A stretch of 46,193 nt of DNA, from IMG/VR virus record IMGVR_UViG_3300020455_000024, positions 1 through 46,193 of that record, one strand, 5' to 3'. Made by a program: the position numbers and the translations under genes. Source of the DNA: a virus. This document shows, piece by piece, positions 13,509 to 30,182 of the stretch (position 1 is the first letter of the stretch; every line of letters starts with the position of its first letter). The notes under the pieces were generated by a model. It made no database searches. It was given only the letters and a program-made list of their open reading frames with translations, and was not told where the DNA came from.

Positions 13509-14630
13509 TTAAGTAAGATTCATTAACATAATATCTTTAATTTCTACACCACTTTGCTTTGTAGTAGTATTTAGTTGTGCTGTTGCTGCCGATGGTTGAA
13601 CTGTAGAAGACTTACCACCACCAGTATTCATTGGAACTGTAATAACTTTTCTCTTTTTATTTTTAGTCATAACAGAATCAACTTTTTTACTTATAGTTTC
13701 TTTGTTACTATCTAAAAGACCTTTAAGTTGTTCTCCAGTAAATTTTCTACTTCCACCCTTTCCATCTTCAAATCCCATATCAATATCAGATGTTTTATCT
13801 TCCACTTTTGACTTTATACTGGATAAAGTATCAGATGTTTTTGATACTGTTCCAGTAGTTAATATATCAGCAGATTTTGGTTCTATTGATTTTACCTCTT
13901 CATCTCCTGTACTTTGATTACTATTAATAGTTTCATTCAAAGCTGCACTTTTATCAACTTGATTATTTGATCCTGCAGATTCTTCTTTAATTTTCTGTTT
14001 TTGCTCTTTGCCAGCATCCTCAATTTGTTTTTTTACATCACCCTTCGCATTTTTTGCTTTTTTCTCTAAATCATTAACACCTTTTTCAGATTTTTTAAGA
14101 ACACCTTTTGCTTTATCTAATTTATCTTGTAATTTCTTCTTTTCACCATCAATTTCACCCTTATTACCAGTTATAGTGTCCCAAGCACTCTTAATACCCC
14201 CACCTATCCATTTAAAGAAATCCACAATACCAGTAACAAAATCCTTTAACTTATCAATAACAGGTTGTACTGAAGAAATAAATTGTTGTATTTTTTCAAC
14301 AATTTTTGGTAGTTGATTTACTATCCATCCAGCAAATATCAACATAAGAAATCTAAAAGGATTAAATCCACCCTTTTTAGCAAACATCTTTTTAGCACCT
14401 TTCTTCATTGATTGCCCCTTTTCTAGCAATTTCTCCTGTAATTGTCTTCTTTTCTTACTAAATTTACTCCTAATATATCTTTTCTGCACCTTAGAATCTT
14501 TTTTAAAGAATTTTCTAAGTCCTGCTGTATTTTGCTTAGATTTCATTCCAATAAATCTTTTCTTTACCTTTTTATCAGCTCTGGCGAGTTTAAACCCACC
14601 CTTCATTTTTCCGAAAACACCTTTTGCCAT
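13509..14630 (-). CDS. Basic, membrane-segment and coiled-coil hub protein
   Basis: A 373-residue protein. Residues 1-90 are extremely Lys/Arg-rich (ADKKVKKRFIGMKSKQ, KKDSKVQKRYIRSKFSKKRR). One hydrophobic segment follows at about 91-110 (FRFLMLIFAGWIVNQLPKIV), then amphipathic helices to about 150, a charged coiled coil (KKKLQDKLDKAKGVLKKSEK) to about 220, and a Ser/Thr-rich tail. It starts on the last base of the gene to its right, so it is in the hub operon. The FLMLIFAGW segment resembles FLFVVVGGW in that neighbour, so the two may be related pieces of a gp28/gp29-like tail-core complex. Exact function not recognised. Confidence 0.6.
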   Translation of the reverse strand: MAKGVFGKMKGGFKLARADKKVKKRFIGMKSKQNTAGLRKFFKKDSKVQKRYIRSKFSKKRRQLQEKLLEKGQSMKKGAKKMFAKKGGFNPFRFLMLIFAGWIVNQLPKIVEKIQQFISSVQPVIDKLKDFVTGIVDFFKWIGGGIKSAWDTITGNKGEIDGEKKKLQDKLDKAKGVLKKSEKGVNDLEKKAKNAKGDVKKQIEDAGKEQKQKIKEESAGSNNQVDKSAALNETINSNQSTGDEEVKSIEPKSADILTTGTVSKTSDTLSSIKSKVEDKTSDIDMGFEDGKGGSRKFTGEQLKGLLDSNKETISKKVDSVMTKNKKRKVITVPMNTGGGKSSTVQPSAATAQLNTTTKQSGVEIKDIMLMNLT

Positions 14631-16069
14631 TATACTACGTTATATTGAGATTGAGAATATGTTGTATATTGGTTACTAACATTACCACTAGCAACTAAAG
14701 GAAGTTCTGGGAATGTTTGTTGTTCCTCTTCAACTGAACCTTCACCACCTTGAGTATTAGACATTGGAATTAATAATGGTTGTTCATCTGGTTCTGGACC
14801 TATTTTTGATGATACATCCTTCTCTGGATGATTAATCTTAATAGTTGGTTTATTAATTTTAAGTTCATGCTCACCTCTAATAGCAGCTTCTTTCTGCTTC
14901 CATTCTTCTCTAGCAGCCTTCCAATACTCCTTTCTACCATCTTTCTTTGATGGTTCATTTGCTCTAATTTCATCAAAGTATTCTTTTTTGGATTTCTTAA
15001 TATCAGCATTCATATCATCTCTAATCTTATCAAGTCTCATCTGCTCATCTTTAAATGCTTTCCATGCAGCCTTTTGTTCTGGAGTACCAGCTTCCTCAAC
15101 AGATTTTCTATGCCTATCACCTTTTCCTCTACCACTACCAATAACTCTTCCTTGAGCATCTACTCCCATTTCTTTAAGAGTTTTCAACTTTTCATTATTC
15201 TTCTTATGTGCCTCTCTTAATTCCTTTCCACCAGCTCTCTTTTCTCTACCCCAATCAAATAATTTCTTCAATCCAAAAATAGCACCACCAACACCAATTG
15301 CTATTAATAAAGCAGTTAAAGTTACAGGATTAAACAATAACCCACCAATCACACCTATTAATGATCCCAATCCACCAAGAATCATACCCATACCACCACT
15401 AGCAAGTAGCATTACACCACCAACTGCAGCAAGACCACCTAAAAGTTGTAACCCTATTTTTGTAATCTTTTTCTTATTACCATCAGAAAATGCATTAATC
15501 AAATCAATAGATTTATTAGTAAACCATCCACCAACAACCACAAAGAGAAATTTCTTTAATTTCTCTAAAATAGGCATTGTAGATTTTGCCTTATCTTGTG
15601 CATCATTAAGTGGGGCATCATTTCCACCTTTATCATCAGGTTCACCACCTAAAGATTCAATATCAGATTCTTTATCACTTCTTCTAGTAAGTTGTTCTTC
15701 TAATTTTCTTCTTGTTTCTTCTATTTTTGCTTTATCTTTCGCATTCTCAATAATTGCCTGTTGTCCAACACGTATTTGATCAACAGAATCTCTTATACCA
15801 TTTAAAGACTGCCTTACTCCCAATAAGGACTCATCCTGCATCTTTACTCTAGTTCCTAGATCAGTAACATCTTTCTCCAACTCAATTACTCTATCAAGAA
15901 CCCTTCTCTGAGATTGAAGAGATTTCATCATTCTATCACCACTAACCATAGAGGTCATTGGTGAAACATTGCCTAATTTTGGTTGGCTGCCAAAATTAGC
16001 AAAAGAAATACTAGTTTTCTTTAGTTTTGGTGTTGCTACATTCGGAAAATTAGTATTATTAGATGGCAT
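14630..16069 (-). CDS. Tape-measure candidate (gp29 position) with membrane segments
   Basis: A 479-residue protein. Residues 40-125 predict a long coiled coil (RRVLDRVIELEKDVTDLGTR, KAKIEETRRKLEEQLTRR). Hydrophobic stretches follow at about 170-190 (KKFLFVVVGGWFTNK) and about 205-270 (LLGGLAAVGGVMLLASGG, GLGSLIGVIGGLLF, TALLIAIGVGGAIFGL), then a basic Lys/Glu-rich region to about 395. Coiled coil plus membrane-inserting segments is typical of tape-measure proteins. Its start overlaps the 60-residue T-like gene by 11 bases, the position of the tape measure after the chaperone pair in P2- and lambda-type phages. The T4 counterpart would be gp29 (590 residues). I infer tape-measure or hub function. 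Confidence 0.6.
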   Translation of the reverse strand: MPSNNTNFPNVATPKLKKTSISFANFGSQPKLGNVSPMTSMVSGDRMMKSLQSQRRVLDRVIELEKDVTDLGTRVKMQDESLLGVRQSLNGIRDSVDQIRVGQQAIIENAKDKAKIEETRRKLEEQLTRRSDKESDIESLGGEPDDKGGNDAPLNDAQDKAKSTMPILEKLKKFLFVVVGGWFTNKSIDLINAFSDGNKKKITKIGLQLLGGLAAVGGVMLLASGGMGMILGGLGSLIGVIGGLLFNPVTLTALLIAIGVGGAIFGLKKLFDWGREKRAGGKELREAHKKNNEKLKTLKEMGVDAQGRVIGSGRGKGDRHRKSVEEAGTPEQKAAWKAFKDEQMRLDKIRDDMNADIKKSKKEYFDEIRANEPSKKDGRKEYWKAAREEWKQKEAAIRGEHELKINKPTIKINHPEKDVSSKIGPEPDEQPLLIPMSNTQGGEGSVEEEQQTFPELPLVASGNVSNQYTTYSQSQYNVV

Positions 16070-16241
16070 TTTGCTGTTGCTGTGCTTTTAAGTTTTCTTC
16101 TTCAATGTGCTGTTGTAAAAGAGATAGATAAACTTCTCTTTCCCAAGGTATCATATTTTCTAGCTCTGTTAAGCTATATTTATGATGCTGCATCAAGGCA
16201 AAATTTACTTTATAGTATGACTCAAGGTTTTCATGAGCCAT
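16059..16241 (-). CDS. Small tail-assembly protein, T-domain/gp51 position
   Basis: A 60-residue protein following gp26 (ATG 2 bases after the gp26 stop, different frame). Core: NFALMQHHKYSLTELENMIP, then WEREVYLSLLQQHIEEE. The pattern F..m..h.YS..Elxxm.pwE...y...L is like the T domain of tail-assembly chaperones, whose N-terminal part is supplied by the preceding gene through frameshifting. The frame of this gene is exactly the -1 frame of gp26, open back through the gp26 stop to a slippery TTTTTTC. It may therefore be made mostly or only as a 301-residue gp26 fusion, although its own ATG has AGGT-like bases upstream. By T4 order (26-51) it occupies the place of gp51 but is far shorter. Confidence 0.7.
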   Translation of the reverse strand: MAHENLESYYKVNFALMQHHKYSLTELENMIPWEREVYLSLLQQHIEEENLKAQQQQNAI

Positions 16242-16243
16242 AC

Positions 16244-16963
16244 CTACCCGAAAAAAGCCGCTAGTCCCTCCAATACAATTTCATTTTCAACTTCTGTCTT
16301 AGGATTCTTGACTCTAATAGTATGAGACAATTTAGGCATAGTTTCAAAAAATTTCTCAATTTCTTTAAACTGTTGAGTACCCAATTGTTCAATAAAATCA
16401 ACTAATTCCTTTTTAGTAGATTCTGATGCTGGCCAAGATTCTTCTTCGGAGTAAATTTGATCAATACATGATGCAACTAAATTGAATGTATCTTCTACAT
16501 CCATACCACCCTCCATATCAAAGTTATTTTTAACAAATTCATCCAATGATGGATATTTCATCTTAAGTGATAATTTATCATCTAACTTAATATCGGTATT
16601 ATGATCATCATCTGTAATAACCTTAATATCATCCAAATTAATGAGATGTGGAACTTGTGTTTCACCATCATCTGGACAAGTAATCATAACTTCAACATCT
16701 TCTCCAACAGATTTTCCTCTAATATTGAGAAATAGATATTCTATATCAAAAGTAGAAAGTTTATCAACTTTTATACCTCTAGTAATAATACAATTTTTAA
16801 GAACATTCTTAACAGCATCTGTTATCTGTTTAGAGTCCTCACTCTCCATTGCGATAATAAGGAGTTTTTCCTCTTTGACCAAAAATGGTCTATATCTGAT
16901 TTTTCGACCAGATGAAGGAAGTACCAACTCATACGTTGGTGCGGTAATTTTTGGTAAAGGCAT
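16244..16963 (-). CDS. 26: Baseplate hub assembly protein gp26-like
   Basis: A 239-residue protein (T4 gp26 is 208). The N-terminus PLPKITAPTYELVLPSSGRK, then YRPFLVKEEKLLIIAMES, is the typical beginning of the T4-type gp26/baseplate family. It also contains a CPDDGETQVPHLINLDDI beta segment and helices up to GLAAFFG at the end. It is needed for hub assembly in T4 and is thought to act as a chaperone for the tape-measure complex. It is first in the hub operon, with a TATAAATA late-type promoter at 16989-16996, 26 bases before the ATG. The slippery TTTTTTC at codons 236-238 suggests a fraction is extended into the next gene. Confidence 0.85.
   Translation of the reverse strand: MPLPKITAPTYELVLPSSGRKIRYRPFLVKEEKLLIIAMESEDSKQITDAVKNVLKNCIITRGIKVDKLSTFDIEYLFLNIRGKSVGEDVEVMITCPDDGETQVPHLINLDDIKVITDDDHNTDIKLDDKLSLKMKYPSLDEFVKNNFDMEGGMDVEDTFNLVASCIDQIYSEEESWPASESTKKELVDFIEQLGTQQFKEIEKFFETMPKLSHTIRVKNPKTEVENEIVLEGLAAFFG
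16250..16256 (-). other. Candidate -1 programmed ribosomal frameshift site
   Basis: In the gp26 frame the message reads GCT TTT TTC GGG TAG, so the heptamer T TTT TTC has the X XXY YYZ form, five bases before the stop codon. After a -1 slip reading continues CGG GTA GGT ATG GCT and enters the 60-residue gene in frame. P2 E/E' uses the closely similar TTTTTTG. Ten bases downstream a 6-bp stem with one G-U pair can form (16234-16239 with 16219-16224, 9-base loop), which could act as a modest stimulator. The site is seen directly; its use is inferred. Confidence 0.6.
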
Positions 16964-16986: not shown

Positions 16987-16996
16987 ATTATTTATA
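16987..16996 (-). promoter_or_regulatory. Late promoter TATAAATAAT for the hub operon
   Basis: The exact T4 late -10 sequence TATAAATA, followed by AT, lies 26 bases before the gp26 ATG in the only gap (about 125 bases) in this part of the minus strand. The rest of that gap up to 17088 holds A- and T-runs but no convincing gene or terminator. Confidence 0.65.
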
Positions 16997-26945: not shown

Positions 26946-26993
26946 TATTTATAGTTGTCATTCAAGTATATAACAAAATATATGATTTGTCAA
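26946..26993 (-). promoter_or_regulatory. Tandem early-type and late-type promoters
   Basis: TTGACA (26988-26993), a 17-base spacer and TATACT (26965-26970) form a near-consensus sigma70 promoter that starts 1 base beside the glutaredoxin stop codon. Eleven bases further on is an exact late box, TATAAATA (26946-26953). The pair would allow both early and late expression of the membrane-protein cluster. Confidence 0.65.
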
Positions 26994-27277: not shown

Positions 27278-27859
27278 TTAATCAAAGAAGAAAATTTGAA
27301 ATAGTCTAGAGTCTTCTTTGTTGGTTCCAAAATATTGTGATGCTGCATGTATATGTTGTGCATCAAAAATGAATAGTCTATTGAATACATTACCAATAGA
27401 ATCTACCAACTCAAACTTAGTTCCATCATAGAATCCACCATCAAAAGCACCTTCATAATTTGAATCACTAGTCCTCATAGCACCATTCTTAGTAGCATAG
27501 AGAGATGTTCCACAACTATATGCTGGATTGGGATGTAGATATATCATTGCTGCCCATGTCTGTCCATCATTATGATACACAATAGGATCTTCAGGAACAC
27601 AATACTGGAACCTACCATTCATACCATGTGATTCCCATTCACGTATCTTGATACCCATGATACGTTCAAATGCTTCCTTCGTTCCTGGGACATAGAACTG
27701 TTCTTCAGTACGTCTTCCTTTATAGTATCGTAAGTCCTCTTTAAACTCTTGCTTCAATGCAAAGTCTCTAACAGCATAAGGATCTGAATAGAAATTATCA
27801 ACTACCCATACAGTTTTCTGTGCTGCTCTATTGATTGATGTTACTGGTATAAATTTCAT
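27278..27859 (-). CDS. 2OG-Fe(II) oxygenase-like protein (DUF6445 type)
   Basis: A 193-residue protein. The core IVYHNDGQTWAAMIYLHPNP and SCGTSLYATKNG gives the HxD half of the iron site. LFIFDAQHIHAASQYFG supplies the distal His, and RLFQIFFFD supplies a 2-oxoglutarate-binding Arg. The start VVDNFYSDPYAVRDFALKQE is characteristic of this subgroup, seen near sugar-related genes in phages. Its ATG overlaps the upstream glycosyltransferase by 4 bases, so the enzymes form one translation unit. Substrate unknown; hydroxylation of a virion or cell-surface component is a guess. Confidence 0.7.
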   Translation of the reverse strand: MKFIPVTSINRAAQKTVWVVDNFYSDPYAVRDFALKQEFKEDLRYYKGRRTEEQFYVPGTKEAFERIMGIKIREWESHGMNGRFQYCVPEDPIVYHNDGQTWAAMIYLHPNPAYSCGTSLYATKNGAMRTSDSNYEGAFDGGFYDGTKFELVDSIGNVFNRLFIFDAQHIHAASQYFGTNKEDSRLFQIFFFD

Positions 27860-28956
27860 GTGTTTTCACATGCTACTTTATGTAAAAACTCTGGATACTT
27901 TCCAGAATCAATATAAAAATTAGTATTAATTAAGAAAAAATATTCTGGAAAAGGCAATTTTCTATTTGGATCTACCAATCTTTCAGTTTGTATCTTCATA
28001 GATTCAAAGTCTCCCATCTGCCTAAAGCATTCAGCAAGTCCAACAATGTGTTCGTTTCTAACTGGGCAAAACTCTTCTGCCCTAATACAACAATCCATTG
28101 CCTTCTCATAATCACCAAGGTATCTATAGAGTTCCTGAAGAAGATAATATGTATAATAACTCATCTCATTAGTACCTGCGTAATTAGTATATGCTAACCA
28201 CTCTTTAAAATAAAATATAGATCTTCTAGCATATTCAATTGAATGATTCCTTCCTAAAGGATAAAAATCTGCAGCAAAACAATCATAATAACTCTTACCA
28301 ATATACCAAAAATGATATGTATCAGTTAATAAATCACCCTCACGTATATGTTTCTCCTCTAATTTTAATGCATCAGAAAGATACTTAGTAGGAACAGTAT
28401 ATGATTCACCATCAAAAGTACCTATTTGTCTAAAACTTTTTGGTAGATCATACTTCTGAAATTCTTCACCAACTCCTGGTAGATCACAGACAATACATTC
28501 ATGTGCTAAGTCATGTTTAAAATGCCAAGGTAATCTTGCATTCCACATCCATGCACGATAATAAACACATCCAGGTTGCATTGCAGTAATATGAAACGCT
28601 TGATTGACTGTATTATTAATCGGAGTCCAATCAAAATCATCATCAACTTCTAGATACTCATCACAATCCATCTTAAGTATCCAATCACATCCATGATCTG
28701 TTTGAAGACACTTCTGTAATAGATGATCTCTATTCCATCCAAAACTTACCCAACCTTCTTCCACTTGATAAATGAATCCAGGTATATTCTTATCATTAAA
28801 AAATTCTTTTACAATATCAGGTGTGCCATCAGTGGAACCATTATCCTGCATCACATAATAATCAATGTACTTATAGCAAGATTCAAGCATCCTCTTCATA
28901 ACAGATGCCTCATTCTTAAACATTGATATCATTACAATCTTTGTTTCTTTATTCAT
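27856..28956 (-). CDS. Family 2 glycosyltransferase with helical-repeat C-terminus
   Basis: A 366-residue protein. The GT-A fold start is clear: VMISMFKNEASVMKRMLESC, DYYVMQDNGSTDGTPDIVKE, and the metal-binding WILKMDCDEYLEVDDDF (DxD-like DCD). Residues from about 260 look like TPR-type helical repeats (YLGDYEKAMDCCIRAEEFCP, HIVGLAECFRQMGDFE). Overlaps both neighbours by 4 bases. A cytoplasmic enzyme; no signal or membrane segment. Acceptor unknown. Confidence 0.85.
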   Translation of the reverse strand: MNKETKIVMISMFKNEASVMKRMLESCYKYIDYYVMQDNGSTDGTPDIVKEFFNDKNIPGFIYQVEEGWVSFGWNRDHLLQKCLQTDHGCDWILKMDCDEYLEVDDDFDWTPINNTVNQAFHITAMQPGCVYYRAWMWNARLPWHFKHDLAHECIVCDLPGVGEEFQKYDLPKSFRQIGTFDGESYTVPTKYLSDALKLEEKHIREGDLLTDTYHFWYIGKSYYDCFAADFYPLGRNHSIEYARRSIFYFKEWLAYTNYAGTNEMSYYTYYLLQELYRYLGDYEKAMDCCIRAEEFCPVRNEHIVGLAECFRQMGDFESMKIQTERLVDPNRKLPFPEYFFLINTNFYIDSGKYPEFLHKVACENT

Positions 28957-30182
28957 ATTGCTAATTCTCCTGGAAAACGTTCTTGATTATCTTTAATTGC
29001 AATTAACCATGCAGATACAACAGGAATTTGTGGTGCCATATCCCAAGTATCCAAACGATATGTTTGAAATCTTATATCTGTATTACGTATGAACTGTGCC
29101 TTGTCACGATTAGTATAGTACCAGAAACTATGTTCATTCCAGAAGCTAACATGAGTTGGATCTTGCCATGCTCCTCTACCATCAGTAGAAGGGACTTCAA
29201 TCATTGCCCATCCACCGTGTGCCAATACCCTATGAATCTCACGCATCGTCTTTATAGGGTCTTTTAGATGCTCTATAATATGACTAGCATTAAGAACACC
29301 AACACTATTATCTGGTAATGGAATACCTTCATCTAAATTACAAGTAATATCAGCACCCTCTTGATCTATAGTTAGATATCCTTCTCTTGGATATAATCCA
29401 CCACCAATATCAACCTTTGATAATCCTCTAATATCAGCATCTCTTTCTGCTAATTGAAAAGCATATTGATTATAAAGTTCTCTAGTTTTCTTTTGTATAT
29501 TTTCTGATCTTTCTAACCATGTATTATCTCCAGTAACTCTATAAATGTAAAGTGGTTTCTTTATATGAAACATCTTTGTTTTGAGATATGTACGAATACA
29601 AAGATCATGATCATCACAAATATCCAACTCAACATTATGACCACCGAGTTCTATATACAATTCTCTTCTCCATGACCTTACATGATCAGGGGCATACCAA
29701 ATATAAGATAAACTATGACTTGTTGGTTCCCATGAATTCATTACGTAATATTTTTTACCACGAAATTCATACTCATACTGAGTCCATCCATGATTACTAT
29801 TATATGGAATAAAATCATCCTGATACATTAATACATCACTATATGCAAATCCAATCTCAGGATCCTGATATGCCTTACATAATTCATCAAGACAATCTGA
29901 TCTAATTAGATCATCAGAATCTATCTCAACCAGAACATCACCTGTTCCTTTATGAAATGCATTATGTTTATGATATCCTACACTCTTTGAATCACTTTCA
30001 GTCCTATGAATAATAACTCTATCATCATCAATTATATCTTTATCTAAATCAGATTCATGCAGTTCATTATTCAACCAAAGAATCCATTCCCAATTATCAT
30101 ATGTCTGGGCAACTATGCTGTCATATAATTCTTTAATATATGGTGTCTTCTTATGAGCAGGAGTTATAATACTAAACTTCAT
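28953..30182 (-). CDS. Glycosyltransferase family 2 fused to a SAM methyltransferase
   Basis: A 409-residue bifunctional protein. Residues 1-230 are GT-A: FSIITPAHKKTPYIKELYDS, DVLVEIDSDDLIRSDCLDEL (DxD) and ELGGHNVELDICDDHDLCIR. Residues about 255-400 are a class I methyltransferase: KVDIGGGLYPREGYLTIDQE (SAM loop), LPDNSVGVLNASHIIEHLKD, REIHRVLAHGGWAMIEVPS. First gene of a three-gene translationally coupled cassette with its own promoter. It probably transfers and methylates a sugar; the target (virion protein, DNA or host surface) cannot be told from sequence. Confidence 0.85.
   Translation of the reverse strand: MKFSIITPAHKKTPYIKELYDSIVAQTYDNWEWILWLNNELHESDLDKDIIDDDRVIIHRTESDSKSVGYHKHNAFHKGTGDVLVEIDSDDLIRSDCLDELCKAYQDPEIGFAYSDVLMYQDDFIPYNSNHGWTQYEYEFRGKKYYVMNSWEPTSHSLSYIWYAPDHVRSWRRELYIELGGHNVELDICDDHDLCIRTYLKTKMFHIKKPLYIYRVTGDNTWLERSENIQKKTRELYNQYAFQLAERDADIRGLSKVDIGGGLYPREGYLTIDQEGADITCNLDEGIPLPDNSVGVLNASHIIEHLKDPIKTMREIHRVLAHGGWAMIEVPSTDGRGAWQDPTHVSFWNEHSFWYYTNRDKAQFIRNTDIRFQTYRLDTWDMAPQIPVVSAWLIAIKDNQERFPGELAI

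Follow-up and report, generated by a model that had tools for sequence, protein, structure and literature searches.

Are the gp26-like gene of a T4-like cyanophage and the short open reading frame (ORF) that follows it two genes, or one translational unit with two products? This question is raised by a locus in IMGVR_UViG_3300020455_000024, of which a stretch of 46,193 nucleotides (nt), hereafter the window, was analyzed; all features of the locus lie on the minus strand and are listed in Table 1. On the sequence evidence we give a probability of roughly 90% to a single unit that yields two proteins, the gp26-like short form (TAC-N) and a long form extended by −1 frameshifting (TAC-NC), both predicted to be tail assembly chaperones (TAC) of the phage.

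The 3′ end of gp26 is read in codons as GAG GGA CTA GCG GCT TTT TTC GGG TAG. A −1 slip at the slippery heptamer T TTT TTC would change the reading to AAFF-RVG-MAHENL... and join gp26 to the small ORF, giving the junction peptide AAFFRVGMAHENLESYYK in the predicted product. Heptamer, frames and fusion ORF were confirmed directly on the sequence. An earlier sequence-only reading of the same DNA had the coordinates, the phase, the open −1 frame, the 60-residue ORF and the 301-residue fusion all correct, and it also saw TTTTTTC in phase near the gp26 stop, only that the distance to TAG is 3 nt and not the five bases it gave. The small ORF has its own ATG (16241-16239), 2 nt past the gp26 stop.

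Conservation was assessed in 162 distinct sequences, the window included, collected from IMG/VR relatives, further scans and named isolates, and in about 90 representatives sharing less than 80% nucleotide identity with each other. Among the close IMG/VR relatives, the heptamer was found at the identical place, 10 nt before the stop, in 80/80, and the −1 frame ran into the same domain; none of them lacked the heptamer or had a stop in the −1 frame, which the sequence-only reading had named as signs against frameshifting. In the wider set, a heptamer and an open −1 frame leading into the conserved C-terminal domain were present at 161 of the 162 loci, and the phase was kept while the flanking bases varied, the pattern that the same reading had proposed to look for. 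The heptamer was TTTTTTC in 160 sequences, TTTTTTG in one (a Rhizobium phage) and neither in one (Vibrio D531). Its position relative to the stop was −10 in 151 and −7 in 10 of the 161 loci, and the gp26 stop itself was of all three kinds. The cultured relatives P-SSM2, S-PM2 and S-SM2 carry the same site, and their predicted junction would read FFR-VSM or FFR-ISM. In the ME01 group and Pseudomonas phage Astolliot (L085, L173-L183, L087), the heptamer directly abuts the stop (TTTTTTC-TAA/TAG) instead of leaving the usual gap of one codon.

The synonymous positions gave a similar result. The base preceding TTT TTC was T in 161/161 loci, compared with about 101 expected from the codon usage of gp26, and the amino acid of that codon varies (S, N, D, A, G). 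Both TTT and TTC of the heptamer were invariant in the 90 representatives and ranked with the gene's most strongly constrained synonymous positions, whereas other Phe columns of gp26 mix the two codons. Across 2883 codon positions of ten neighboring genes that were scanned, the run in this heptamer was the only in-phase TTTTTT. The sequence evidence for a frameshift is very strong.

Two further elements flank the heptamer, and together they provide the Shine-Dalgarno (SD)-like sequence and the downstream structure by which a frameshifted chaperone locus may be stimulated in cis. At about 10 nt 5′ of the heptamer, Glu was encoded by GAG in 79% of the 90 representatives, compared with about 30% at other Glu codons of gp26, and with the next Gly codon it forms SD-like GAGGG; in the window this element is GAGGGA, which the sequence-only reading did not mention. 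Downstream, that reading described a weak stem-loop at a distance of 10 bases. The structure is instead an 11-bp hairpin (GGUAUGGCUCA / UGAGUCAUACU) that starts 5 nt past the heptamer, with a folding energy of −14.6 to −14.9 kcal/mol (−14.9 for the stems given) and z scores against dinucleotide shuffles of −5.9 (40-nt window) and −4.3 (48-nt window). Over the approximately 90 representatives, the mean z was −3.2 at the hairpin position and near zero at least 20 nt to either side.

Because the hairpin region is coding, we used a null in which the protein was kept and synonymous codons were redrawn. The mean z was again −3.2, and p < 0.05 was obtained in 79% of the representatives compared with 4-24% in four control windows, the 24% being from a partly structured control at +90, so that the null is not perfectly flat. 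When the window stem was applied to 139 distinct sequences, 71% of the pairs could form, compared with 27-49% when the partners were slid. When all 139 ungapped sequences were folded together with RNAalifold, the single consensus showed no structure, because the stem shifts and changes its sequence among lineages, and for this reason the folding of each sequence against the synonymous-codon null was used instead. Unrelated stems occupy the same place in different lineages (GUAUGGCUC/GAGUCAUAC; GUUCUAUAAUA/UAUUAUAGAAC; AAUGAUGCAC/GUGCAUCAUU). The hairpin had no match in Rfam.

Comparison with T4 indicates what the two products would be. T4 gp26 (208 residues) is a PF12322 protein and aligns with the short form, and in T4 gp51 (249 residues) PF12322 is followed by an extension at the C-terminus, with nearly the whole protein covered by the match to phrog_150. 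The alignment of the fusion with T4 gp51 spans both proteins from end to end and is collinear across the junction (fusion AAFFRVGMAHENLESYYKVNF...HKYSLTELENMIPWERE; T4 gp51 ...SNYSLNSISKMIPAERG). For this reason, the annotated "gp51" of cyanophages is, as judged from the alignment, the C-terminal part of a G/GT-type chaperone. For the small ORF, profile matches were obtained both to phrog_634 (hub assembly catalyst, E = 8.6e-29) and to phrog_150, in which columns 5-232 correspond to gp26 and columns 239-280, at the C-terminus, to the small ORF; the family profile itself therefore holds both ORFs as one protein. By homology both forms belong to the T4-like TAC family (gp26/gp51, PF12322/phrog_150), and the in-phase X XXY YYZ heptamer followed by an open −1 frame that leads into a second ORF, in the window and in 161/162 loci, is a feature of G/GT-type loci. 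In T4, gp26 and gp51 are two separate genes on opposite strands, and the separate arrangement is also found in relatives of the T4 subgroup, indicating that T4 uses two genes for the same short/long pair that would be made here by frameshifting. The G/GT-type mechanism that the sequence-only reading proposed for gp26 and the gene at the gp51 position is supported by this collinearity and by the conservation of the heptamer, and what is cited from the literature agrees with it.

An AlphaFold2 model of gp26 had a predicted local distance difference test score (pLDDT) of 86.6 and matched T4-like baseplate hub proteins in a viral structure library. In the PDB its two highest-probability folds were HK97 2ob9 (probability 0.54, TM 0.48 of the target, E = 1.3) and 3fgx (probability 0.41, E = 3.9), neither of them significant; both are tail assembly chaperones (PMC9603447). 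When the PDB was searched by sequence with the two profiles, all matches were chance-like, and a PDB fold search with the small domain found nothing.

We infer the slippage, its rate and the chaperone action of the products as follows. The majority of ribosomes would stop at the gp26 TAG and release the short form of 239 residues. A minority would pause at T TTT TTC owing to the upstream SD-like GAGGGA and the hairpin 5 bases downstream, slip back one base and bypass the stop, adding three linker residues and the 60-residue domain to give the long form. The two forms would be the counterparts of lambda G/GT and T4 gp26/gp51; by analogy with lambda, the short form may coat the tape measure protein and the C-terminal domain may recruit tail tube subunits.

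Table 1. Anatomy of the gp26/gp51 locus in the window
Feature	Position	Strand	Remarks
gp26-like short form (TAC-N)	16244..16963	−	239 residues; PF12322 (T4_baseplate), E = 6.9e-76; phrog_150 (baseplate hub), E = 6.9e-84
gp26 stop TAG	16246-16244	−	
Slippery heptamer T TTT TTC	16256-16250	−	direct read of the sequence
Small ORF, "gp51" in relatives' annotation (TAC-C)	16059..16241	−	60 codons; −1 frame relative to gp26
Predicted −1 frameshift product (TAC-NC)	16059..16963	−	301 residues by translation; collinear with T4 gp51 across the junction
SD-like GAGGGA	16265..16270	−	about 10 nt 5′ of the heptamer; probable 5′ stimulator
Hairpin	16214..16244	−	arms 16244-16234 and 16224-16214; starts 5 nt past the heptamer; encloses the small ORF ATG
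Next ORF, candidate tape measure or part of it	14630..16069	−	479 residues; 11-nt overlap with the small ORF; assignment inferred

The start codon of the small ORF allows other explanations. The frameshift fusion could be accompanied by some small protein made from its own start, since an ATG is found within the first 12 codons of the −1 frame, just past the stop, in about 131 of the 161 loci. We consider this unlikely, as no good Shine-Dalgarno sequence lies between the gp26 stop and the ATG, and the start codon is buried in the hairpin and has been lost freely in several lineages. In 30 of the 161 loci there is no ATG within these 12 codons, and in 20 there is no ATG, GTG or TTG, while the protein sequence of the domain is still conserved; L018, a close relative, is a case in point. 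At those 20 loci the frameshift from gp26 is therefore the only evident route to the domain.

The same counts bear on a stricter alternative, in which ribosomes re-initiate past the gp26 stop to translate the small ORF as a gene of its own, gp51, and the heptamer is incidental. The closeness of ATG and stop in the window, the distinct gp51 annotated in the records of relatives and the overlap of stop and start in distant Vibrio phages are all compatible with it. Nevertheless, it is very improbable, because it does not account for the loci without a start near the junction, for a −1 frame that continues uninterrupted past the stop in all 161, for an ATG placed within a hairpin in the window, or for heptamer, wobble T and GAG that are conserved beyond the amino-acid need. 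In addition, the small ORF alone would be without the first 200 residues of T4 gp51, the size gap described in PMC3037559.

Slippage of RNA polymerase instead of the ribosome on the six T/U run could also yield the fusion, but is very improbable. Six T is a short run for transcriptional slippage, and the phase requirement, the SD-like element and the hairpin spaced by 5 nt suit ribosomal slippage. T runs are error-prone in sequencing and assembly, but an error splitting one gene is rejected, as the same six-T split is found in isolates and in contigs of independent projects with varying neighboring bases.

Some observations nevertheless weigh against the ribosomal frameshift and the chaperone identity. 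An ATG opens the small ORF in the window and in most relatives, compatible with a separate 60-residue protein; the PDB fold matches of the gp26 model have E > 1; no profile recognizes the downstream gene (16069-14630) as a tape measure; and the Vibrio group of D531 and K452 (L090, L190) has both domains without a canonical heptamer. In this group, stop and start overlap (TAATG), and re-initiation by stop-start coupling or a weaker slip site may be used instead. The gp26 end is CTT TTT GCG TAATGATGG in K452 and CTT TTC AAG TAATGG in D531. A scan of viral contigs using the D531 protein as query gave no relatives.

The neighboring genes are arranged as follows. Directly upstream of gp26 is a tail-tube-like gene (PF23849, 17089-17859, minus strand, GTG start), and the gene after the small ORF is tape-measure-like only in its hydrophobic segment and position. 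The overlap of this gene (16069-14630) with the small ORF, pointed out in the sequence-only reading, was found, and a central hydrophobic stretch (approximately 204-271; compare 228-258 of T4 gp29) is present as well. The gene showed weak similarity to P-SSM2_016 and no family match in profile searches, and no homology of the downstream genes to T4 gp27, gp28 and gp29 was detected by BLAST. From its position, overlap and T4 gp29-like hydrophobic stretch it is a candidate tape measure.

The place of the PF23849 gene is that of T4 gp54 in Vibrio relatives. A T4 late promoter core, TATAAATA, lies at 16989-16996 on the minus strand, 26 nt 5′ of the gp26 ATG, and two further copies are found on the same strand at 26946 and 38021; since three copies in the window are below the 7.7 expected by chance, placement counts more than number. 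The long genes after gp51 have endolysin or peptidase family matches in S-PM2 and ME01 and are annotated as transglycosylase in S-SM2 (L084:3386-5714; L085:3434-5705; L194:4483-7001), and are possibly tape measures with wall-degrading domains. At this position the window has shorter ORFs with no domain of the endolysin, peptidase or transglycosylase type. Elsewhere among the structural genes, two adjoining genes (27856-30182, minus strand) weakly match beta-1,4-glycosyltransferase and methyltransferase families.

Cyanophage and marine vibriophage gp51 were noted in 2010 to be without about 200 N-terminal residues, with the cyanophage protein reaching only some 20% of the T4 gp51 length (PMC3037559), and a 2016 review listed T4 as the exception to the G-T frameshift rule (PMC5009743). 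As cited by others, Vladimirov, Gautam and Davidson (2022, Virology 566:9-15) described T4-like phages that use no frameshift but two chaperone genes, one short and one long (PRFect, PMC10274946), and slippery poly-T signals within the TAC-N genes of phages of this type (PMC12846349). The mechanism is thus already reported for T4-like phages, as far as these citations convey, and the present locus is a further example and not a new kind; our results therefore confirm and extend it. The abstract of the 2022 paper reportedly names genes 26 and 51 as the pair in T4 and describes the frameshift as conserved within several groups of T4-like phages. In the literature searched, where that paper was represented by the works citing it, we found nothing stated on the loss of start codons, on the SD-like element or on the rebuilding of the hairpin.

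It seems somewhat better supported than not that, in Kyanoviridae and several other T4-like groups, the annotated gp51 is a −1 extension of gp26 and no independent gene, with a three-part signal whose hairpin is rebuilt from new sequence in each lineage, and that the frameshift may be ancestral, in which case the T4 26/51 arrangement would have arisen from it through duplication and in-frame fusion. If this is true, a third solution, with no canonical heptamer, would be found in the Vibrio D531/K452 group. The size puzzle of 2010 would be resolved, as the part missing from cyanophage gp51 is supplied by gp26 through the frameshift, and the annotation of gp26 and gp51 as two genes, found in hundreds of cyanophage genomes, leaves out a predicted product. 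One conserved protein pair would have two genetic routes, frameshift or two genes, and a very abundant group of marine viruses would carry a well-defined signal of heptamer, SD-like site and hairpin.

The −1 frameshift signal of E. coli dnaX consists of an upstream SD-like sequence, the heptamer A AAA AAG and a hairpin about 5 nt downstream, the same three-part arrangement as here in a different gene and with a different heptamer. P2 E/E′ comprises a short chaperone and its low-level −1 extension ahead of the tape measure gene. In lambda, G is a short chaperone and GT its −1 extension, made at a low level, and the tape measure gene follows directly (PMC5009743). The present locus is predicted to share this plan with both and has no detectable sequence similarity to them. 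The lambda heptamer is GGGAAAG, compared with TTTTTTC here. The hub assembly chaperones gp26 and gp51 of T4 (Tevenvirinae) correspond to the short and long forms, encoded there by two genes on opposite strands and here by one frameshift locus, which appears to be of the kind of the frameshifted TACs of T4-like phages (Vladimirov 2022, as cited in PMC10274946 and PMC12846349). The TAC locus of Vandenendeviridae (Pseudomonas phage Adele, PMC12846349) likewise has a −1 frame open in all alleles, a T-rich slippery motif and a small ORF mis-annotated as a gene, and differs in its motif, GTTTTT, and in belonging to another phage family.
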